Source of the DNA: Isoetes taiwanensis
Lineage: Eukaryota > Streptophyta > Lycopodiopsida > Isoetales > Isoetaceae
Reading direction: 5' to 3'
Assembly: GCA_021234155.1 (NCBI GenBank)
Contig: JAJEKV010000013.1
Coordinates: 3,275,735 to 3,339,734 of the forward strand
Length of the DNA stretch: 64,000 nucleotides
The number at the start of each line of letters is the position of its first letter. Within the stretch, counting starts at the first letter, position 1. The notes under the pieces were generated by a model that was not told the origin of the DNA, made no database searches, and saw only the letters and a program-made list of their open reading frames with translations. Below are positions 34,889 to 64,000 of the stretch, in pieces. The translations under genes and the position numbers were made by a program.

Positions 34889-35880
34889 TGGATCTGAACT
34901 CTTTTCCAGAAGATGGGTTTGCTGATGAGGAAATTCCATCCATTCATATTGCACCTAAGCAATCCAGCCCTGCTGTGAATCCAGCAGCTACTTCTGTCAA
35001 AGGAAAGGCACTTTGACCTAATCATGTCATTGATCATCTCTTAATAGAGTTTGCAGATGTTAAATTCAATGTGGTTAAGAAAGGGAATCTAGGAAGCAAG
35101 CATCACGATTTGATTGCCACCTGCCTGAACAGGGAGTTTAATACGAAGTATGAGGGAAAGCAAGTGAAGAATCGTCTTGAGTTCATGATCAGGCAGTATA
35201 AGAAGGAAAGAGATCAAGAAAACGGAACAGGGAGCACTCCAAGCACATGGCAGTATTTTGATCAGATAGATGCCATCCTGGGTAGCTCGGCCAAGTGCGG
35301 TGGATTGCCAGGAGGCACAACAGACATTGGGTTTAGATCCCAGTCAAATTCTGACTCCAATGCAAGTGGCAGTAGGAAGCATTCTTGATGTGATCGGCAA
35401 GAGATCCAAGAGGTTCTTGGGAAGAGGCATAAGGGATCATGCTAAAATGAGCAACCAGACAACCCTCCAGTAATCAATTTAGAAGCTTAAGACTCGCGAG
35501 TGACAGTGATTGATGATGAGAGCGAGGAGATTCCTGATGATTGTCAACACACACCCAAGAAGGATGGGAAGGAGAAGCAAGTTGTTGCTAAGAAAGGGAG
35601 CCCCAGTCTTCGGGGAAAGAAGACTAAATCAAAGCGCAACGATGAAGCAGTTCGAGGTGCAGCATCTATTCTGGCTGATGCTCTTACGAGCATCACCCTC
35701 ATACAAAAAGATTTGAAGGTAATGGAGTTGCAACAAAAGAGAGAAGTAGCTAAGCATGCTGAGCAATTGCAACTATAAATTGCAGATAAAAAGGAGCAAT
35801 TGCAACTACTTCTTGCTGAGATGCAAATGAGACTACAACTTGATATGCATTCACGCGCATCTGCCTCTAGAAATTACATA
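34889..35880 (+). pseudogene. Harbinger Myb/SANT-like accessory protein, broken
   Basis: PIF/Harbinger elements need a second protein with a Myb/SANT-like trihelix domain that helps the transposase bind DNA. Here the frame starts at 34889 (MDLNSFPEDGFADEE). It contains the trihelix pattern: IDHLLIEFADVKF, GSKHHDLIATCLNREF, QVKNRLEFMIRQYKK and TWQYFDQIDAIL. A TGA at 35014-35016 stands where Trp is usual at the domain start, and the frame changes near 35385. The C-terminal part at 35500-35778 is charged and coiled-coil-like (LIQKDLKVMELQQKREVAKH) and continues with LAEMQMRLQLDMHSRA, typical of the family's C-terminus. It is non-functional as it stands. Confidence 0.8.
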
Positions 35881-36040
35881 ACATAATTATTCTCATTACT
35901 CGTTACTCATGCTTTGAAGATCACACCTAGTTTTGGATTAAAGAAAATAAACTGAACATGCTTTAAGAGCCAACACAATTAAAACACACAAACTTAAAAC
36001 TTTGGATTCTTAAGGTTTCAGAAGGCCCTTGTCCTGCATA

Positions 36041-36041
<1 letters not shown>

Positions 36042-36119
<78 letters not shown>

Positions 36120-36990
36120 GCTCACTTGGGCCTCGAGAGGCCATAGAGCACATGAACAACTGTTTACAATTTTAGCATCAAGGCACGGTGTGCATCCACT
36201 GCCCTTATATAAGGACCTAATGCCATTGGTGGTAACAATAACAAAGAATAAACGTCTACTACCTGTATCCCAAAGTTTTGTCTAATATGTGCATATTCAG
36301 AGCATACTAAGAAAACATGGCGCTCATCTTCAACCTATCCCGCTCTTGCACAATTTACATAAAACGATCTTCCACCGGAATTTTTGCCCATCTGCCAATT
36401 TCAATTTCCAGCCTGTGTGACCCTGTCCTGTACCTGGCAATAAGTCTCCAACATGATCATATGGTTAACATTTGTCTGATATTTCAACATCCTTTTCCCC
36501 GGAATAGCTCATAGCTCATCCACTGCTGCCTTTTCGAGCATGGCCCTGACCTCTTATTTTTCAAGTGGCTATGTACTGCCAACGCCCCATCTGATTGCCC
36601 ACGCCTGCAGGCCTCTACACCAATCCGATGTTACCATTGCTTGATGGGATAGCCGTCTAGTGTCTTGTGCCATGACCCTATTATAGAAATTGATTGCCTG
36701 GTATAATCCTTCAAGTGGAAACATTCCTACTTCTGCCAGCATTATAGCATATAGGATCTGTGATCTGATTCCTAGTTCTTCTTTCAAGAATAGCTTTTGT
36801 ACTGCTTCGATTTGTCTCCACATCCTAGATGAGATACCTGCTCCCCAGATGGGGACACCATACAACACTATAGTTTGGACCAGGGATTTGAATAAAATTT
36901 TCTTCAAGCTCCAATCAGTAAGAGAAGCTTTGCTACACTTCGCCAACATGCTGTATATGGTGCGACGCAAGCAATTACCTTCTCTTCGTC
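36042..36990 (-). mobile_element. LINE 3' end nested in the Harbinger element, with (AAT)n tail
   Basis: The minus strand encodes the C-terminal part of a non-LTR reverse transcriptase (LFKSLVQTIVLYGVPIWGAG, IEAVQKLFLKEELGIRSQIL, MLAEVGMFPLEGLYQAINFY; within 36569-36990). Downstream at about 36.34-36.42 kb is the zinc-knuckle region (EIGRWAKIPVEDRF then a Cys-rich stretch). Directly beyond lies (AAT)n on the same strand, seen as (ATT)n at 36042-36119 on the plus strand. LINEs of the RTE and L2 groups end in such short tandem repeats rather than poly(A), so this is read as the element's own 3' tail. The copy is 5'-truncated. It lies just 3' of the transposase coding end, between the two Harbinger genes. 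Confidence 0.75.
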
Positions 36991-37990
36991 TCCTGCTCTC
37001 CCCTTGATTAATAGCACCACCACCGTAGATTGTGACATTACCTTCTACACCTTCTTCCTCGCCATTCAATTGCAGAAAGTTGTGCAACACACAACATGCA
37101 ATTACAACATGTGGAGCAATTAATGGCATACTACCACAAGTTCTTCTAATTGGTGAAGCAAGAATTTGTCTAGTTTGCAGCTTACCGTACAAAGGAGAAG
37201 TATGGAAGTGGCGAGTGTCGTGTGATCACAGCATATGCCCCAGAATATCTTACCAGCATCACACACTGCCTATAACAAAATAGAATAGAAGTGATGACGA
37301 CACCAATAATCTGTTGGAGTATACCTTGCTGCTGACTTGTGACGGAATGGAATGTGTGAGCCATTTATGACACCAGCCACATGTGGTACTCCAGATATGG
37401 ACTCAAATTCTTCCATGATAGACTGCAGCCTGGCACCGTCAGGAGGTCTAATGAACTCATTCCTCAAATTTGTGGCCAGTATCTCCACAATAATTCTAGT
37501 ATACTTATGCACAGTCGAGACACCAAGGGCGAACAATTGGGAACAGACAAAAGTTTTTGAGTTATGACCAAGACAGAAAATCACACAAGCTAGAGCTTGC
37601 TCTTTGTAAACAGGTTCCCTTACCCATTCTTGAGGATCCGCTTCTGGAATATGTGGAGCCACTAATTTGAGCAAAGCGTCAAAGTTCCATGCAGACATTC
37701 GATAGAAGCGCCTGAAATTGTAATTGCCTGCAAGACCGGATTCATGCCACAAGGAAGAGCTCACCTCTTCCTAGAAGGCGGTCTGCCTCGGATAGACCCA
37801 ATATTCCCTGCTTGTGTTGGAGAGCACAGAGAACAAAACTATGATCCAACTCAACAAAATTTGAATCACAACACTTACAAATTGGTCGAAATCATCATGA
37901 TTAGAAGATAGATCACTGCGTAGGAGGTAGATGACCCTCTGCCATATGAATTCGACTGTGAAAAAGGAAGGCTCCGGCTGTGAAAAAGAA
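36991..37990 (-). pseudogene. PIF/Harbinger transposase (DDE), broken
   Basis: The minus-strand frame 37270-37764 begins in the typical N-terminal region (NFRRFYRMSAWNFDALLKLV) and continues with a helix-turn-helix-like segment (LFALGVSTVHKYTRIIVEIL). It reaches the first catalytic block, which reads GVINGSHIPF where the family has G.IDGTHI, so the first catalytic Asp is Asn here. After a stop at about 37268 another frame carries the end of the domain (PHVVIACCVLHNFL, about 37080-37120). It is likely inactive, both by the stop and by the missing Asp. A frame upstream at 37771-38166 may include the true N-terminus. LINE sequence abuts the C-terminal end. Confidence 0.8.
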
Positions 37991-38447
37991 AGGCAGGTGA
38001 TGAATTGGACGGAGTTTGCTAACAGCTGATGGCCGATTTTATGCTGATGATGGATTTTCAGCAATAAGGCACCTGGCAGTGGAGGAGCCCATGTGAACGC
38101 GTTGCTGATGCTCTGGGTCAGCGCTGACCCAGCCAGCTGGAAAATCCCCGTTCCAAAATGGGTCATGTGACCCCAACATAAGTACTATTCCCGCTAGGCA
38201 CGCTTAACTTCAGTCAAGGATTCTATGCGGTAGCGATGGTACGACGACCGCACCACCAAACCTTGACTTCAAAAATTCTGGTCTCGGTCAGGTCCAGCGA
38301 GTTCCCCCTGCTTTCAATTTTGCAGTCGCGCATGGGAGCGTAGGCTGGAAAATTTTCTCAGCCATTTCCCGGCGGTCGGAGATAGTCGACTTCGGAACTT
38401 AGATCGAGAGTGAGGACAGGAGGTTCGACCCGACCTAATCGATCGAA

Positions 38448-52315: not shown

Positions 52316-52926
52316 AAAGCATACAAAATATAAATGCAACCTCCTGTTATTATGCTAGATATTATGGTTTGATGAGTTTGCAGGTTTATACGCATGCAAT
52401 TAGAAAAAGTAGAAAGAGCCCATGCTTATATAGATTGCTTATGAGTTTCTTTTGTGATGGAAGCATGCTGGATAATTGGCAGTTTATTTTCTTTTTAATT
52501 CCAAGTTGATGCCTTGTAGTAGTTGAAATTTACTATTTTCTGATGAATCTAACCTTGTAATTCCTGAAAATCATTATTTTTTCGAACACTCTTGAGGTTG
52601 CAGACCTCTTGACAGTGTTTTTTATGAGCCACATGATCCATCTCCCAAGGAATCGTTATCCTTCTTATCGTTAACTTGCATAGGATTTTCTTTTCTAGCC
52701 ATTTTGTTTTTTCCATGAGATGCTGCATTTAAGTCGTATTTAATTAAAGTGGGACAAATCTTGAATTTTGGGACTCGGACTGAAAATGGGACTCACACAC
52801 CATAAAAGAAATTTCTGAATTGATTGCTTGAATAGAATTACACATGACACACATAGAATTGGGTTACTTGTTTTCCTCATAAATTTTACAAACCACTAGT
52901 TGAGAAAGTTTTCAAACTTCTCAATA
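52316..52926. other. Gene-free spacer
   Basis: No gene or repeat recognised. Confidence 0.4.
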
Positions 52927-55664
52927 TTATGCACCCTCATACAATGATATAGCATGGAGGTTGCTCATGGCCTTGTCCATCTCCTTTCTTGGGATCTTGT
53001 GTGTGTTGTCTTTTGCAATGTGAGAACTTGGATATGACCATACCACACATTCCACCAATTCCCTCCTTTGAGGGTCAGCATAATTTGGCCTCCACTTCTT
53101 CTCCCAGCAGTCAGTGTATTGCTCCTTCAAGTTGCCCTTCTTGTGCCTCCCAATGGGCTCCCAATATTGAATTTGGAATCCAGGACGTAACTCCTCTCCA
53201 TCAGGCATAGTGGTGGTCACATCAGAGAGTGCCACCCCTAACCATATTGGGCCAGTCCTCATCATCGGGGCCTTACTAGCACAAAGTATCCTTCCTTGAT
53301 GTCCTCAAAGGGATCCCACTCGGGAAGATCAAACCACTTCCGGCTTTGAGGCCTTACTTCCCACAAACCACTTGGGACCCAAGTGAGCATTCTTAGACGT
53401 GCTTGCACCTTGAGAACCCTCCCATCTTGACTCTGGCAAGAACCCGTCTCTTAGCTCCCTCCCACATGGCTGTTCAGTTTCTAAGCATGTTACAACTTTC
53501 TCCCAGTACTTGATTAGGGAGTCCATTTGATTTTTCTTAAGAGTGGAGGTGTGCTTTCCATTTTGAACATCATCGGTCGTTATGTAATCCTTGATGCCCT
53601 TCACCGGTTGGCTAGAGTCTTGACCTGTCTTGAAGGGAGGTAGTGGTTTTGGCTGCCCTTTAGGAATGAGAACTTCACCAGCAACACCCCTTTGCCACAA
53701 CTCGATACCTTGTACAGGCATCCACAACTTGTCACCTGGTCTCCACTTATATTGCATGATTGGTATTCCATCCCTAACCCAAAACTTGAATTGAAGTGGC
53801 TTTGTGTGTGTGTCATCAACCTGGTCCTTGCCATCTAGCAAGTATCCTTCTACAAATGATTTCCAATCGCAACCTCATCCATCAAGAAAGCCATTGGGTT
53901 GGGGTCAATGCAGCTCTCAAACACATCCATTAGTTCGGGGAGAGTGGTCACGTTTTCTCTCTTGAGCTTGGTGGAGAAAGTTCAAAGAATCCATCAATAT
54001 CATCATCGTATGCCCAACCATCATGAATCCCACTTTCACAACTTTGAATACTCCCCTTGCTGGCGTCAAGTATGACATTGCCCCAAACATCCATCTATTC
54101 TTGTTTTCTTTCCAACAGGTTGTCCAACCCTGAACACATAGCTCCTCGGTGATTTCTCTAGTAAGGGGAAATCATCCCAAGTCCTCCTTGATTCACTAGG
54201 CACCTTGGATGTGAGCTTTTTTATCCGCCTTTGGTAACAAAGCGGTTGATCATCCATCAAAGCCTCAAAATGGGTTTGAAGGGGAATACCTCCTCCCTTC
54301 TATCGATCCTTTCTCTAGTGTTCTCAAGCACTTGAAAATAGAGCTCACATGGAAGTTTGGATCATCTCTCCATAGATCAAGCACAAAATGACCATATGTT
54401 CCAGTTCCATGACCATGTGTTAATACACCCGCCGGACTTACTTTCATCCAAAAGCGTTTTGACAACGCTTGGGTAAAGGATCTAGCTTTGGCAAGAAAGT
54501 CTTGTGTTGGTCCATCTTATCATGAATTATACACAAAAATTTGTCCACTGCATCTCGAGAAAATGTTCTCCTTCGCCAATACAACCTGTCTACATGATAT
54601 TTGGTCTCTTTGGTGATCGCAAATTGCTCCCTAATTGCCATTCTTTCTTTCTCTATTGCAGTTGATGCAAGTGTATCCTTGAGTTGAATGCAAGTGTTGC
54701 ACTTTGAGAATGGCATGTGTTGTAGGACACTCGCGTCCAGAAAGTGAGTGCTCCATAACTTGCTGAAATGTGATTGAGAAAGAGGCCTACCTCCGGTAGT
54801 TTCTAGGATGGAGTTGACCTCCTTAAGGCACTCCTTTTGGATATAGTGTTGTGGCAACACTCTTTGCACCACTCGCACACCGTGCTCGTTCACCTTCGAC
54901 TTGTGGGGCATAGATTGAGACATGTATCTCACAAAGCTCTCAAGGCTGCAATGGCCTTTAGAGTATTTGCTCTAGGTTTCAAAGTGAGTGCATTACCATG
55001 TTGGAACAAAGTGTGCCCTTTTCTAACTGCTCCCGATGTCGTAAAATGAAGACTTGCTCACCCCAAGAATCCATCTCAATGCTCTCATACATACCTTCAT
55101 TCCCCTCAATTGATATAGCGGTAGAGTCTGTGTTTTCATCATATTTGGAATTCCTACACAAGGAGTAAATGAAATTAATCCTATCTTTTGAAGCTGTCCA
55201 ATGTATTGGGACCTTATGCATGCGAGGTCATCCACATTGTAATGCCTTTGTGCAATCTAGGTTGCAACACTCTTGTCCCCTAATTGCCTCGGGTTTTCTT
55301 TGGTTGGTGCCATACTTTCCATCCTTTCTAAATATTTGTCACTTCTAGGCCTCTTGGGCACCTTTGGCTGCCTTTTATGAAAGACATGGCGTCTCTTCCT
55401 TGTGATCAAAGGATGCTCATCGACCACCAAATCTTCCACATGGCCTTGGGTGGGCCTTGGGGTGTGTAGTTCGATGGGGCATTCTAGAGTATCACCATTC
55501 TTGTGTGTAATAAATCTAATTGGCCATCTCAAAGCGAGCTTGGGACTCCGGCAGCCACGAGCACACAATGCAATCACTAGAGCTTCCACGGGACATGATA
55601 GTATCAACCGATAAGAAGCTTCACAATGCCAACTCAAGATGTTCATCTCCCGACCTCTCATCAT
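52927..55664 (-). pseudogene. Broken gene of the DUF7869-like kind, seven minus-strand frames
   Basis: A run of long minus-strand frames (55257-55664, 54979-55221, 54444-54932, 54265-54465, 54066-54260, 53329-53841, 52927-53265) looks like one large decayed protein gene. The middle part carries KCNTCIQLKDTL, then HDKMDQHKTFLPKLDPLPKR and LTHGHGTGTYGHFVLDLW. From memory these resemble the core of DUF7869-type proteins, an RNase H-like family multiplied in seed-free plants and several animals. C-terminal frames have WKPGDKLW-like and PxFGQYWEP-like stretches (for example GFQIQYWEPIGRHKKGN). Function is unknown; a transposon-borne nuclease or a multicopy host gene are both possible. The copy is broken in several places. 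Neighbours give no clue. Confidence 0.6.
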
Positions 55665-57113: not shown

Positions 57114-57354
57114 TTCTCGACTTCGCGAGTCGAGAACTTCTCGACTTCGCGAAGGCGAAGAGGGAGTGTACACTCACGGGACTGTTGGCGGGGTTGAGGG
57201 ATTCTCGACTTCGCGATTCGGGATTACCGACTACCCAATGTCTTCACATTCTTTAGAACCTGCTTTGCAGCCTTCTCGACTTCGTGAGTCGAGAATGTGA
57301 TACCCTGCCAATGGCTCTTTGTGCGTCACCCAGGTGCCTCCCACCCAGTCGAGC

Positions 57355-58430
57355 CACTCTCCTTGAACCATGCTCATGAATATTGCGAAGAGGACTGGCT
57401 CCGGGTGGGGGAGGCCTCGGCGACAACCAGCTGAGTCGGGGCGCTTTCTCCGACTTCGTGAGTCGGGCTTGACTCTAGTGAACTCAGCTGGCTGGCAGGC
57501 GGTCTCAACCACTCTCCTTCTATCTTCTCGGACATTCGAGAAGGGAAGTGGTTTTATTTGTCTGGGCCAACTCTAACAACCCAATTCTCACATTATTGTG
57601 AATTGTGGCCTCTACCCAATCAAAGACCCGTCTCCTTGAACCATCTTGCAGAATATTGCGAAGGGGATGGGCTCCGGTGGGTGGAGAACCTCGGCCTGTT
57701 CACAGGACTGGCGGGCTTTCTCGAGCTCGTGAGTCGAAAAAAGCTTGACTCAAAGTGCACTCTAGAGCTGGCTGCTTGAGGCGGTCTTAAACACTCTCCT
57801 TCTATCTTCCGGACATTGCGAAGGGAAGTGTTTTTCTTGTCTGCCGGGCCAACTCTTAGCAACCCAATTCTCGTGTGTGGTGAGATGCATGCATGCATTC
57901 CACGGTGCTTTGAATGCCTTATGCATTCTACGGCTGTTTTCTTGGGGAATGCCTTATTGTGGTCGCGGTGGCCTCTAGGCACTCCATGTGTGAGGGGCTG
58001 AGGGTGGGTGGAGGCCTCTACAACTAACCACCGAAACCGGAGTTACGGATGGCCAAGGCATTCTCGACTTGGGGTGCGGATGGCCAAGGCATTCTGAAGT
58101 CGAGAATGCCAAGCATTCTCGACTTCGCGAGTCGAGAATCCCTTAACCGACCAATTCTCACATTAATGGTAGCGGTGGCCTCGACCCGGTCGAGTCACTC
58201 TCCTTGAACCATCTTCGTCGAATAGTGCGAAGGGAGGGGCTGGGGGCTGGGTGGAGGCCTCTGTGACCCGGGGAAACCCAGGAGGAAGCCAAGGCTTGCA
58301 TTCTTTACAAATCTTGCACTTTCTATTCTCCGTTTTTTTAGTCCCAAGTGCCTCTAGCACATGCGAGCCACTCTCCTTGAACCATCTTCCTCGAATATTG
58401 CGAAGAGGAGTGGTTGGACGAGTGGAGGCC
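57355..58430. repeat. Array of about four degenerate 250-270-base units
   Basis: GAGCCACTCTCCTTGAACCA followed by TCTTCCTCGAATATTGCGAAG-type sequence recurs at about 57351, 57627, 58191 and 58365. The first two units also share GGGCTCCGG, a palindrome copy, GCTTGACTC, GAGGCGGTCT, ACTCTCCTTCTATCTTC, CGGACATT, GGGAAGTG and CCAACTCT. The later units are shorter. No coding frame is conserved across units, so this is a noncoding array. Confidence 0.8.
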
Positions 58431-58783
58431 CCTCAAACTAACTACAAGAGGATGCATTTGAACCGCATCTCACGGGCCTTAGTCCTAGCACGATCTATGT
58501 ACAACATTCAAGTAAGCGGTCCATGGAAAAGCGGACCTAAAGCGGGCTGTTCTTTACCCCCGATCCAATGTTTCCTTGCCGAGCATCTATCAACCTAGAG
58601 AGTAAATCATCTCTCGAAAGAGAAATCTTTGGACAAGGAAAGCTGGGAATCCGTCGAGCTTATCAGCGGTTCCATTATTTAAACACATGCGGCATGTTCT
58701 ACAAAGCGAAATAACATAGGCATCTCGAAACTCACCTCTTCATGGTAATTCCTTGGGCCCTTTGTATCCGCGGATCCATGACC

Positions 58784-59119
58784 TCACCCGAGTCTTTGCT
58801 TCTTAAACGTAGGTCTCTTCAAGAGTGTATTAGCATCTATTACTTTCATTATCCTTGCGATTTCGCGTATCCCCTTTCCATGGCGCCCGCGGTGTAGAGT
58901 TCGATTAATGCGGCGGCTCCTCTCGCTTCCTACCTTAGCTCCGTGCTCATCGATCAATTCAGCTGTTTTGCAATAGGGCCAGCGGTCGGGAAAAACACAC
59001 ATATGCAAAGCTATTAGCGACTTACCGCGTCGCGGCGCCATTAGGAAGTCGCTCACGGTCGATGATCCCCTCCGACCTCGAGTTCCCCAATGCCGCGGGG
59101 AAGATAAACTACGCTCCAC
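58784..59119 (-). other. Unidentified coding-like frame
   Basis: A 111-residue minus-strand frame has protein-like composition in its second half (ELIDEHGAKVGSERSRRI, GKGIREIARIMKVIDANTLL). There is no recognised family. It could be a decayed gene or chance in G+C-rich DNA. Confidence 0.25.
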
Positions 59120-59299
59120 TCACTTAGTCCCTTGATGTGATTCAATTTCGAAATAGTGTTTGCGGGCTAAAGCCGGCCGTCTTTGTACCCTTAGCCAGCT
59201 TTTTTCATAAATGATTGCATGTCCTTAACTTCAAATTAAAGAACACGCCCGATCTTTTTTACATGCAGTCCTAAAAACTCACAACTAGCGGAGGAAACT

Positions 59300-60600
59300 T
59301 AATTTGAGAGTCGTCGAAGGCGGATGAGAGGGCATATAGAAATGACTCCGTCCAAGAAGCTGGCGTGGGAGGGATGCTTACGCCGGCGGCAAGAAGAAGA
59401 AGAAGACAAACACCCGGGTGAGCTCGAGGTTTTTCTTTTGTCGGAATACCTTAAGCGATCCATCCGTTCTTCTTGCGGCATTCACCTCGGACTCGCGGTG
59501 ATCAGCGGCGAACTCCATTCTTTGTCATCAGAGGCTGGAGGCGAGCTTCTTGAAACGGTGGCGATTCTTGGTGGTATGTCGAGGTATCGACAAGTGGGAA
59601 GGAGAAAGATCTGTTTCTACACCAAAGGGACAAGAAGAGCTCAGGAGACAAGTACAAGAAAATCGGTGTTGTGCTCTCTCCGTCTCTGCGCCAGATTGAA
59701 GCATTTGACACTACATGTCGAGGACTGCGGAAGAGTAAGTTCTATCGCACCAAAAATTGGCGGTTTCAAATTATTCTCACTCTTCCATGAGCAAGGCTAA
59801 GGGCTAAAAAAAAGGCGGCCTTTAAATTGTCGAGAACCTTGGGTGGAAGGATCTGGAAGGGATGAAGGAGGGCGGAACCCTAACATCCGAGGGAGCTTGG
59901 TATGGAGATTTTCAGTGAGGGAAAAACATTTCAATACGGGGAGCTTCACATCTCTTGTCTTTGAAGACTCTACAACACTCTGCAGTGGGAATGTTGTGGT
60001 TCATACACAAAAAGTCCACCAAAAAACAAAGATGGGGATGATGACACCACACGGGAGGAGTCGGATGATGAAGGAGGCGAAGATATGGTCGACTCCCCAA
60101 ACCTCGATCGGATGATCGGATCGGGATTTCTCGAGAGAGGGCGCAGAAAATGGGCGTCTAGCTCGGTATTATCCGTTGGGAATATCACACAAGCTTCTTC
60201 TTTGGACATTAGGCGGCTGAAGGTTTGCACGGGAGATGCCGTCTTGTTCAACCATGGGAATTTAATCCGGCACACATCTTTGGAGATTTGAAACGATGGT
60301 GCGACATCTGTTGCAGATCAATGCTGCGGATGTCATACCTTTTAGCAGATCGGCAGGTGAGTTGTTCATTTGGAAGTCGAGGAAGATCTGAAGGAAAAAG
60401 GCGTGGGTTACGGGTTGTAGGCGGTCGGCATTGATTAAGGCGGCTCAAGTATTGCAGAGCGGAGAAGGAGGTGCCGCGCAAAGGATCAAGGATAGATATG
60501 CAAGCGAGAGTCGCGAGTTCTTTCGGCGGAGGCGCCCGAGAACGGCGGCGGCGTATGCTTGCCGAACACAATAGCGGCGGCGAGTGCCCGGCCACGTAAG
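59300..60600 (+). other. Coding-like stretch, family unknown, broken
   Basis: Plus-strand frames 59324-59800, 59843-60115, 60085-60291 and 60225-60434 follow one another with protein-like composition (for example RRQEEEEDKHPGELEVFLL, YLKRSIRSSCGIHLGLAVI and NLDRMIGSGFLERGRRKW). I recognise no domain. The frames are interrupted, so at best this is the relic of a gene. A palindrome-containing array (60626-61008) follows directly. Confidence 0.35.
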
Positions 60601-60625
60601 GTAAATAACTCTCTGAATCTTTCCA

Positions 60626-61008
60626 TTTCGATTTCGCTGAGTCGAAAGCCCTACCATCCTAACATTTGCCGATTATCCTTTGGGGTTTTTCGACTCGCGA
60701 GTCAGAAAGCCGAATAAACTGAGAAAATCAAAGGATGTGGAGCTTTTCGACTTCGCGAGTCGAAAACCCTAGCTTGATAAAAGAAAATTAGACATTGAAT
60801 GGGACTTTCTGTTCGCGAGTCGAAAAGCCCCGCCATCTAACATTTGCCGATTATCTTTGGGGTTTCTCGACTTCGCTGAGTCGAGAAAGCGGTAATGAGA
60901 AAAATCAAAGGATCGCGAGCTTTCTCGACTTCCGCGAAGTCGAGAAAAAGAAGAAAAAAAAGAAAATTAGACATTCAAAGGGACTTTCGACTCGCGAAGT
61001 CGAGAAAA
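60626..61008. repeat. Tandem pair of about 177-base units carrying palindromes
   Basis: Two units (about 60626-60802 and 60803-60982, with a final palindrome to 61008) share, in order: a palindrome, CATCTAACATTTGCCGATTA-like sequence, GGGGTTT, a palindrome, GAGAAAATCAAAGGAT, a palindrome, AAAGAAAATTAGACATT and GGGACTTT. Each unit holds three palindromes, which have therefore been multiplied together with the sequence between them. Confidence 0.88.
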
Positions 61009-62663
61009 CCGAGGCTACATTTTGTTTATTCCGGGTGTTTGTAGATACTTTCATGCTCGACATTGGTACATTATGCGAATCTCTTATATCGACGGATCAT
61101 ACACGCTAGGCAACTTGATGGAAAGCATTGGGTTGTCCTCGATCCTAAAGGAAACAGGGCTCCCTCGGATAAGTGGAAGACCTTTGAGAAACTATGCAGA
61201 TATGTTCGGGCTTTGGAGGACGAGGAAGATGGACGAGGGAGAGGAAGAAGAGGAGAAGAAGAGAACACCAAGGAAAGGCGGGGAGTCTCTCGGACCAATA
61301 CGACCTCATTCTTAGCAATCGGGCGGTGCGGGAGAAATGGACTGAAATATGGGCTCAATGGACAAGAGGCAAGTTGAAGGACAAAGCAATGGAGAATTTC
61401 CAAAGCCCGACCCCAAGTTGTTTGACAAGCAGTTCATGAAGAGGATCTGGGGGCCTCACCGGACAAAGAAACGCTTGACCTACAAGGCAAAATCTTGGAG
61501 GGAACAATCCTGCTGAGGAAGACCAGGAGTTCTAAATTGCAGGACGCAAAGGATTATGCCACAGTCCTAAAGCGACAGCGTGCGTTAGAAGAAGGCATCA
61601 CGGAGTTCTGCAACGTTGCATCTAATGAATACCATGAATTTGATTATTACAAGGAAAAGGCTGCCCTTGATGAGGAAGACATGAAGGAATTGAACCGTCT
61701 ATGTCAACCCTACATCAACACCAAAGCGTAGCGTCAAAACCCTTCCTTTCCCGAGCGTGCGTGCTATGGCAAGTTCGAAAAGGAAGCTTGGATTCGGGGT
61801 GGTCCCATTTAAAGTGACGATAGCTCCCCATTTCTGGTTACTTTGGGACACAAGGGATTTGGTGGAGTGCAGGCGGCTTTTGGACCCGTGGCACTATTTG
61901 CCATCAATATGATCGAAGACCCCACCCTTTTTTATGACAAAGGCGACATAGAGTGGTACAAGGCGTGTGCGGACATGACCGACACGGATACTTTCGGTTT
62001 CCTTGTCTTTTGCATCTTGGGGCAATCAAACAAGCTGCTTTGTCTCCCAATGGGCAGGTGATATTAACTTCACCAACAAGATCATGCACTCCATATACGA
62101 ACTTGATCATGAGTGCGGACTTGGCTTTACCGAAGGCACCAAGCTTTGCCAACATAGTTTTGGTTTTGATTTCAAGATGGTGATCGACACGGATAAGTGG
62201 TGGTCTAGCGAGCATCATTATCTCGACAAGTTCATGATCTCTCAAGAGCGGATGGAACCACGGAAGGGGGCAGGGTTTATGGAGGATGTTCCATCGATGG
62301 ACAAGGTCAGCAAGGATGGTGCGACCGGTCCTATACATAGAATTCCTATCCGGCCAAGAGTTATCAAGTACTTCATAACCCGGCAGTGAGGAAGATCAAA
62401 TTGTATCGAGTGGTACATGAATGGCTTTGTTCTCTCGGGGGCTATCTTTGTTTGGAATGAAACCTATATCCGTGGTTGGAAATAAGGACATGGTTGAAAC
62501 CATTCGGTCATACTTGGATGCGCTTCATGAGCATTTCAAGGGGAGGAAGACAAATGGAAGCGATAAAGGCGGCGAGGCGAGGGGGAGACAAACGGCGGAG
62601 GCGAGGATGTCGAAGGATTGGACCAGAATCTTTGCGAAAACATTATTGAAAACACGAGATTGA
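61009..62663 (+). other. Coding-like stretch, family unknown, broken
   Basis: Several protein-like plus-strand frames lie in a row: 61063-61377 (LDGKHWVVLDPKGNRAPSDK, LCRYVRALEDEE), 61495-61731 (NVASNEYHEFDYYKEKAALD), 61843-62061 (AINMIEDPTLFYDKGDIEWY), 62003-62389 (NKIMHSIYELDHECGLGFTE, FDFKMVIDTDKWWSSEHHYL) and 62421-62663. Acidic and aromatic residues are spread as in real globular proteins and codon use differs from the AT-rich rest of the window. I do not recognise a domain. The stretch is broken several times. A palindrome at 62689 lies just after its last frame. Confidence 0.45.
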
Positions 62664-62686
62664 GGTGAGTTTACTTTGCTCTAGCG

Positions 62687-63645
62687 GTGTTTCTCGACTT
62701 CGCGAGTCGAGAAAACTCGTTCCTTTCAATACCTTTTCTTGTCATTCATTTCGCGAGTCGAGAATACTCGTTCCTTCGGCCGGTTGTCATCATTTGGGAA
62801 TTCGAGCTCAACGAGTCAGGATCATTGTCAATGGATTCCAGCGGTTCCCGTCGGCGAGGAGAATCACGAATGAAAATCCAGCAAAGCAAGACGCTCCGCG
62901 GCCGAAAAGAACACGAAAAGTTAATGATCCGCATTTGGATCCCGATGAACCGGAAATATGGTGAGCCAAACTCAAGCGGGATCCATTTGGTCCCACCAAG
63001 CTTGTAATATTTGGCGTCAATGGAGTATTAGCTGCGGTATACCCACGACAAAGGCGTCCCCAAGATTAACACCTCGCGGATCCCGGTGAAAGCGAGCATA
63101 AAAATAGTGTATCCGAGGCCCGAGCTAAGGAAATTATTGAATGGTGCACGGCGCGGGGATTTGAAGTGGCCATATGGTCTTGTATGGCAAAAGAAAAATA
63201 TTGTCAATGTTCTTGGTGTTCTCGGCATTTCAGTTTTGAAGTTCAAGTTCGTTTGGGGAAGCGAAAGGGTCGAGCATGTGAAGGACCTCGATCCACCATC
63301 ACAAAGGGAAGCCTATAATGGTGAAAAATTTGGGCCGGTGTTTATGAGCAATTCGGGACTTTGGCAAACACAACACGCCCTGATCATAGGCGACTCAGCC
63401 TACAAGTGCTATCATAGCGCCAAAAAATACAATCATTGCTAAGCCATATCGACACGAAGAATATGAGGCAGAGATAGGTGGTTGTCGCCGGACTCTACAT
63501 CTGTCTTGGCGGAATCCCTCTTTGCCATTCTTGTCGCCCGATGTGCTTACTACGAACTATCCGAGCCTCACGGAACCCGATCCAGAGAGCAAGCCGATCA
63601 TGAAAGCTATGGGCGACAAATACTTTGGTGAACAAGAAGAGTGAC
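62687..63645 (+). other. Coding-like stretch, family unknown, broken
   Basis: Frames 62665-62964, 62687-63007 and 63086-63442 are on the plus strand. The last is most protein-like (IKIVYPRPELRKLLNGARRG, DLKWPYGLVWQKKNIVNVLG, FMSNSGLWQTQHALIIGDSA). Beyond it a different frame ends in KPIMKAMGDKYFGEQEE and a TGA at about 63642. No family is recognised. About 100 bases after that stop a strong palindrome stands at 63748-63775. Confidence 0.4.
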
Positions 63646-64000
63646 CCTCGCTTTCGGATAGTCAAATTGTGTGAATATTGTAATCGAACTTGAACACATG
63701 TATTGACCATTTTGTAATGAATATACTTGTATATTGAGTTTTTCGATGCCTTTCGACTCACGAGTCGAGAAAGGCATGCTTGTCAAATGTTGATGAAATG
63801 CTTGTACAATCTATTATGATAATGCTTGTACATTGGGTTTCTGGGACTTTCGACTCGCGAGTCGAGAAAGGCATGCTAATTGTCTCGTTGACAAAAGCAT
63901 TTGTATGCTTCAGGTGTGTGATTGGATGCAACCATATTCTAATGAGAATGGTTGTACTTTTGACTTTACGGGCCTTTCTCGACTCCTTGAGTCGAAGAAA

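Follow-up and report, generated by a model that had tools for sequence, protein, structure and literature searches.

A palindrome repeated in the non-coding parts of a high-copy terminal-inverted-repeat DNA transposon of Isoetes taiwanensis

Organelle GC clusters and bacterial REP palindromes are examples of many short palindromes lying in non-coding DNA. Among DNA transposons, CACTA/En-Spm elements have terminal inverted repeats (TIRs) that begin with CACTA, a 3-bp target-site duplication (TSD) and subterminal TnpA sites near their ends, and the Mutator-like VANDAL elements have a TSD of 8-9 bp, a MULE transposase and, in the VANC system, a protein that binds the repeated motif and reduces methylation. 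In Arabidopsis, VANC21 binds a short motif that occurs within VANDAL21 both in introns and in intergenic and terminal regions (PMC5735166). Here we report on a palindrome found in a 64,000-nucleotide stretch of the genome of Isoetes taiwanensis (contig JAJEKV010000013.1, positions 3,275,735 to 3,339,734; the whole stretch is called the window below). We are close to certain that it is a cis-element repeated in the interior of TIR DNA transposons, which form a high-copy clan in this plant genome and one of which runs across the right-hand end of the window (Table 1).

The palindrome has the form TTTCTCGACT-N4-AGTCGAGAAA and is 24 nt long. With at most one mismatch allowed, the half-site TTTCTCGACT matches the window 30 times against 3.68 expected, a number reached by none of 100 shuffles, and 24 of the 30 matches are located beyond 57.1 kb. 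When whole palindromes were called with at most 6 mismatches to models of the arms and centre, 19 were found at 57,114-63,998, whereas the first 56.8 kb had none, which bears out the initial annotation of the window (about 20 copies in 7 kb, absent before). The palindromes do begin near 57 kb, as it had stated, but that point lies inside a larger element starting at 52,731. Genome-wide (1,658,258,908 bases in 1,110 contigs), a scan for TCTCGACT-N(3-10)-AGTCGAGA, and thus for variable centres as the annotation had proposed, returned 8,451 copies that are clustered and not evenly scattered; the reversed control returned none. Bacterial and archaeal genomes, searched with the window variant of the motif only, gave no match, and neither Rfam nor tRNA matches were found.

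The element that carries the palindromes in the window is flanked on both sides by the TSD ATTT, and its TIR starts with AAGTC. The exact 25-mer of this TIR occurs 1,102 times in forward and 1,115 times in reverse orientation in the genome (2,217 in all; control 0). Sixteen sequences were scanned for TIR ends with a 17-bp core, allowing up to 3 substitutions, and seven elements with both ends in reach had the TIR at both. The 4-bp TSD was perfect in six of these seven (ATTT, CTTT, GGGT, AATG, TTAA and AATT) and imperfect in L051 (TTAA/GTAA). The seven fall into two size classes, 12.2-12.4 kb (three elements) and 4.0-4.6 kb (four elements). Copies on other contigs are 77-93% identical to the window over stretches of more than 700 bases and have the ends in common. 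A comparison of the 4-kb members with P0001-P0008, the set to which the open frames of Table 1 belong, gave no match at E 0.01 (eleven loci compared). A literature search on Isoetes, palindrome and TIR and on NIF and transposase turned up no such element, most subscription papers not being covered, and found no mention of CGACTTCGCGAGTCG, the commoner form without the extra T not being covered.

Table 1. Features of the transposon that carries the palindromes (window coordinates).
Feature	Positions	Strand	Details
DNA transposon, 12.18 kb	52,731-64,907 (last 907 bases in adjoining stretch L047, to L047:907)	.	TIR and TSD
Left TIR	52731-52755		25 bp, AAGTCGTATTTAATTAAAGTGGGAC; inverted repeat at both ends
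Putative transposase gene, broken	52927..55664	-	Homologous open reading frame P0003 in another copy: Pfam PF25273 DUF7869, E 3.7e-29
Palindrome zone 1	57114..58138	.	Palindromes at 57114, 57138, 57202, 57273, 57447, 57718, 58116
Inverted pair in zone 1	58096-58126
Exon region A, plus-strand gene	59303..60600	+	Frame broken in window; open for 324 amino acids in L069 (P0004)
Likely intron 1	60601..61085	+	Palindromes at 60625, 60687, 60744, 60805, 60864, 60922, 60984
Exon region BC	61086..62664	+	Broken in window; open for 550 amino acids in L067 (P0006)
Intron 2	62665..62795	+	Palindromes at 62691, 62742; window copy has the donor GTGAGT but no acceptor CAG
NIF/FCP1-type phosphatase domain exon	62796..63644	+	PF03031 E 1.2e-10 in L055, 2.1e-8 in L072; broken in window
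Palindrome zone 4, downstream of NIF-exon stop codon	63750..63998	+	Palindromes at 63750, 63847, 63976

Within the element the palindromes occupy four zones: the inter-gene spacer, intron 1, intron 2 and the region downstream of the NIF stop codon. All 87 palindromes in nine copies of the 12-kb kind lie in such non-coding zones; the exon regions and the DUF7869 part are free of them (the window copy, c968 and c919 are complete and the rest partly fetched, with the DUF7869 part covered by five copies only). This confirms the position between or after coding-like frames given by the initial annotation, and the avoidance of exons that it had proposed to check. The three complete copies hold 10, 11 and 14 palindromes. 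None lies in the first 4.4 kb of the 12-kb copies (five copies with the left part), and the 4-kb members L064 and L065 have one palindrome about 0.5 kb from an end. Zone 1 is either a spacer between two genes or the first intron of the plus-strand gene; amid its palindromes a second imperfect hairpin repeat, CTCTCCTTGAACCAT...GAATATTGCGAAG, occurs at least four times (57,350-58,410). In L051 and L053, whose TIRs are wholly or partly the same, palindrome-containing units of about 65-70 bases are arranged in tandem directly before a splice-acceptor-like TTGCAG, and arrays related to these units are present in L052, L062, L064 and L065.

The association with the transposon extends across the genome as far as it was sampled. 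Among the first 50 palindromes of the genome list, which follows contig order and is therefore not a random sample, 35 have an exact TIR no more than 13.5 kb away and lie on its inward side. Another 11 sit in L056 (TIR with 1 change), L058 (one end found, with 3 changes), L066 (4 changes in one end and 5 in the other; similar to L064 around its palindrome) or L050, placing 46 in TIR elements or a diverged relative and leaving 4 unchecked. The diverged relative is L050, where the palindromes have the same core and 4-nt centre as in the 12-kb copies and are flanked by matches to the DUF7869-gene and A proteins (36-69% identical); no TIR was found in it. Both this relative and the 4-kb non-autonomous members, whose ends match those of the 12-kb kind, thus retain the palindromes, and the core is identical in palindromes whose flanks are unrelated. 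A stand-alone mobile palindrome was dropped as an explanation after the 4-kb elements proved to share the TIRs: the palindromes do move, as the initial annotation had considered, but as passengers of a transposon.

Two genes were recognized in the element. The DUF7869 gene on the minus strand presumably encodes the transposase; its homologue P0003 has no relative by sequence in the PDB. A first look at the genome gave 9,902 DUF7869 candidates, of which 150 were scored and all 150 passed, and 14 control genomes gave no match. DUF7869 genes probably form a large group of transposons, and nothing was found in the literature under that name. The plus-strand gene consists of exon regions A, BC and NIF. 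In most copies the stretch before BC has GTAAAT, GTAAAA or GTAAAG and later TGCAG and is likely to be intron 1; its end in Table 1 is approximate because the acceptor is not clean in the window copy, where a tandem duplication of about 179 bp was also seen. For the BC region (searched as P0002) there were 3,443 candidates, of which 96 were scored; they yielded 97 matches, 70-92% identical with self excluded. Substitutions among copies are strongly three-periodic, indicating that BC serves, or once served, as a coding exon under selection. No Pfam match above the cut-off was obtained for BC (DUF7135, E 0.0031, is below it), and P0002 had none in the PDB. The BC-NIF junction reads GTGAG in 19 of 19 copies, and removal of intron 2 up to CAG leaves the frame open in 13 of the 16 copies with both splice sites, compared with 1 of 16 unspliced; the acceptor is unclear in three copies (the window, L082 and c22). 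Protein pieces from the window itself, those of the NIF exon included, had no match of weight in Pfam or the PDB, and PHROGs and NCBIfam gave nothing useful except that the NIF exon weakly matched HAD. Downstream, the 3' zone has a tandem unit of about 126 bp containing a palindrome. A 466-amino-acid kinase-like frame (L055:2-1399, minus strand; Pkinase E 1.6e-5, below the cut-off) adjoins one copy of the element. Elsewhere the window carries exons with Sec23/24 and pyridine-nucleotide oxidoreductase domains, which we read as plant-type. A weak HTH_Tnp_4 frame (E 0.006, below the cut-off, minus strand) lies near a Myb/SANT-like frame (Myb_DNA-bind_4, 4e-9, plus strand) at 35,017-38,166, read as a possible Harbinger-like remnant.

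The initial annotation had described the centre of the palindrome as variable. Its length does vary, but mostly in damaged copies, the window copy among them. A 4-nt centre is present in 6,767 of the 8,451 palindromes genome-wide. Six loci whose BC frame is open have it in 53 of their 56 palindromes, and ten further short pieces (seven of which derive from BC matches with 1 to 3 stops) in 11 of 12. The proportions are 3 of 5 in L060, where the BC frame is mostly open, 23 of 32 in non-autonomous or diverged loci, and 11 of 40 in six loci with a broken BC frame, among them the window copy with 2 of 11. The assembly was built from nanopore reads with short-read polishing and gap-filling (PMC8566536). 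Measured against what most of the better copies have, the window copy shows 13 insertion events, 16 deletion events and 8.9 GCGG per kb, whereas c968, c919, c1042 and c1056 have 1-5 insertions, 2-7 deletions and 2.5-2.8 GCGG. For c22 and c13 the values are 9-10 insertions and 15-22 deletions per kb; the 44-58 deletion events of c1019 and c1064 are read as stretches missing from these copies. Along the window, GCGG runs at 4.7-17.5 per kb in 58,500-64,000 and at 0.8-2.8 in the first 56.5 kb, and frames break by insertions and deletions. Because the better copies have neither the GCGG excess nor the frame-breaking indels, base-calling errors in an unpolished repeat are suggested, and the window copy looks more like unpolished nanopore sequence than like plain decay. 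CpG richness, considered as a sign of lacking methylation, was dropped, the high CpG of the window copy accompanying its high GCGG and many indels.

Conservation of the palindrome was assessed by comparing pairwise difference (pi) in its arms and in adjacent non-coding columns. The window copy and c22 were excluded from the counts. Independence of columns is assumed in the p values, which take no account of the relatedness of copies. In intron 2 of 15 copies (L082 and c1042 excluded), pi was 0.036 in the arms and 0.156 in their neighbors, with 7 of 36 and 36 of 79 columns variable. For loci with an open BC frame only, the values were 0.062 and 0.129 in intron 1 (p 0.0098) and 0.096 and 0.180 in the spacer (p 0.0032); in the 3' zone, a version without L067 gave 0.010 and 0.067. 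Centres were more variable than the rest in most tests. The arms are less variable than adjacent non-coding DNA in three of the four zones of the better-preserved copies, and this difference is gone when damaged copies are added.

The explanation we favor, a transposon cis-element read by a dimeric DNA-binding protein, seems to us, taken as a whole, evenly balanced between right and wrong. Its functional core, that the palindromes may be sites for a homodimeric sequence-specific protein recognizing or regulating copies of the element, falls just short of that balance. Each palindrome would consist of two half-sites bound by one homodimeric protein, supplied by the element itself or by the host, and the many sites would let the protein recognize and regulate the element's own copies, for example by de-silencing, like VANC in VANDAL transposons. 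A dimer site, already among the suggestions of the initial annotation, is the best fit because the spacing is mostly fixed at 4 nt, the half-sites are conserved and the clusters are non-coding, although the binding itself is only inferred. Introns would hold the sites since, together with the spacer, they provide the element with its non-coding room. A more specific version is tentative and on the unlikely side: an element-encoded dimeric regulator or anti-silencing factor would read the palindrome as a 24-nt operator, with the NIF-type (RNA-polymerase C-terminal-domain-like) phosphatase in the same gene. Several results weigh against the dimer-site explanation. With L082 and c1042 kept (17 copies), the intron 2 values become 0.091 and 0.203, with 16 of 36 arm columns and 52 of 79 neighboring columns variable, and the centres there differ little from the rest (0.160 and 0.156). 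In the 3' zone the arms of open-frame loci do not differ significantly from their neighbors (0.056 and 0.074, p 0.25), and in the wider test, to which the broken copies were admitted, they are more variable (0.230 and 0.114). A whole-element alignment including the broken copy c13 gave no significant difference in intron 1, intron 2 or the 3' zone. Copy-to-copy conversion among related copies could keep arms alike without function. No DNA-binding domain was recognized in the A, BC and NIF products, and by the observed/expected CpG ratio the palindrome half is not marked as unmethylated (BC exon 0.23-0.67). Finally, in non-autonomous members 3 of 9 changed arm pairs are compensated (14 sites, 5 loci), which favors pairing.

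Pairing is central to an explanation that we consider somewhat improbable, in which the palindromes act as RNA in the pre-mRNA of the plus-strand gene, pairs within introns bringing splice sites together and 3' copies folding as stem-loops. Intron 2 RNA folds much more strongly than its shuffles in L068, L069 and L077 (z -6.7, -6.3 and -3.8), as does a 3' piece with one palindrome (z -5.1), and in L068 and L069 the two palindromes are joined in one duplex of about 23 bp. The window intron reaches z -2.6, a value equalled by 4 of 200 shuffles, and any two copies of the palindrome are mutually complementary. Flank positions -1, -2 and -4 pair above shuffled partners (z 5.6, 4.3 and 5.8; 132 distinct flank pairs), with no excess from -7 outward; these z values are uncorrected for relatedness and orientation, and arm indels add to position -1. 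The co-variation that the initial annotation had proposed to test is present in the flanks, and with the compensated pairs of the non-autonomous members it speaks for hairpins, but none was seen in the core arms of the 12-kb kind. Among sites with at most 2 arm changes, none of the 25 changed pairs in copies of the 12-kb kind is compensated (91 sites, 22 loci), which suggests that what is kept is the sequence rather than just the ability to pair. Nor is an RNA strand bias clear (C>T 8 and G>A 6; A>G 6 and T>C 1), and a loop would not require a mostly fixed 4-nt centre. In copies c1019 and c1064 one intron palindrome is largely gone, and their BC frames are still open; L081 has one palindrome, though its match contains 2 stops. 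We judge it rather unlikely that the palindromes have no function at all, having been multiplied by slippage, unequal exchange and inter-copy conversion, with youth or homogenization mimicking conservation. Palindrome-bearing tandem units do exist (intron 1 of the window copy has one of about 179 bp, the 3' zone one of about 126 bp, and the units of the L051 array measure 65-70 bp), palindrome number differs among the complete copies, scrambled palindromes occur in several, mostly damaged, copies, and arm conservation is lost once such copies enter. Against this stand the less variable arms of the better-preserved copies, the same core within unrelated flanks, the palindrome-free exon regions and the presence of the palindrome in L050.

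The initial annotation had also raised hairpins marking transcript ends, as in large DNA viruses, and an insertion from a giant virus is next to impossible. GC and CpG are above those of the surroundings, palindromes lie close to frame ends, and Mimiviridae have hairpin polyadenylation signals, which are not conserved in sequence (PMC4402537). On the other hand, the element has introns and over 1,000 copies of each end, its boundaries, TIR and TSD in plant DNA, refute a giant-virus origin, and most palindromes are in introns and spacer, only one of the four zones (63.75-64.0 kb) lying behind the last-exon stop codon. Viral-contig searches with two window fragments and P0002 confirmed no relative. 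Searching viral contigs for exact motifs returned 2 stretches in one case and 42 in another, 41 of the 42 with one palindrome and L037 with two, which we read as chance. A search for capsids of nucleocytoplasmic large DNA viruses found none, but 14 controls were equally silent, and it hence carries no weight. For genome scans the case is a warning: where high GC, dense frames and repeated hairpins come together in an island of a plant genome, the source can be a transposon lying in poorly polished sequence and not a virus.

Set beside the described systems, the palindromes differ from organelle GC clusters and REP sequences in that, as far as sampled, they are not free-standing but carried within a TIR element. 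They resemble the TnpA sites of CACTA/En-Spm elements, which are repeated short sites in both orientations for an element protein. The element itself falls outside that class, its TIR starting with AAGTC and its TSD being 4 and not 3 bp, and its palindromes, unlike the subterminal TnpA sites, are missing from the first 4.4 kb of 12-kb copies, the 4-kb L064 and L065 coming nearest to an exception. Mimivirus hairpins are likewise palindromes, some of them behind a stop codon, whereas the sequence here is conserved and sits mostly in introns and spacer of a plant transposon (compared with PMC4402537). The medusavirus promoter motif is, like ours, a palindrome that is conserved in sequence, measures about 24 nt and occurs where genes are dense, but most of its copies stand 40-70 bp upstream of the start codon, above all in immediate early genes of the virus (PMC8557863). 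Here the arrays are in transposon introns and 3' regions.

If the version with an element-encoded regulator is true, the palindromes would represent a second, independent invention of a VANC-like strategy, in a group of transposons with DUF7869 and a 4-bp TSD that we did not find described. If an element protein reads the sites, motif-guided self-recognition of DNA transposons would have arisen outside the Arabidopsis VANDALs, in lycophytes, an old lineage of vascular plants. No MULE Pfam match was found in the ten open reading frames scanned, and with its 4-bp TSD the element is not a Mutator-like VANDAL. It also differs from VANDAL21 in its DUF7869 gene, in that no VANC relative was recognized and protein binding is only inferred here, and in that a 24-nt palindrome takes the place of a 9-nt motif arrayed in one orientation (PMC5735166). 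What it shares with VANDAL elements is that the motif arrays are non-coding and absent from exons. As in VANDAL21, the non-coding regions of a DNA transposon, whether introns, intergenic or terminal, carry repeats of a short motif that has spread via tandem repeats, is gained and lost between copies and is concentrated in one family (PMC5735166).

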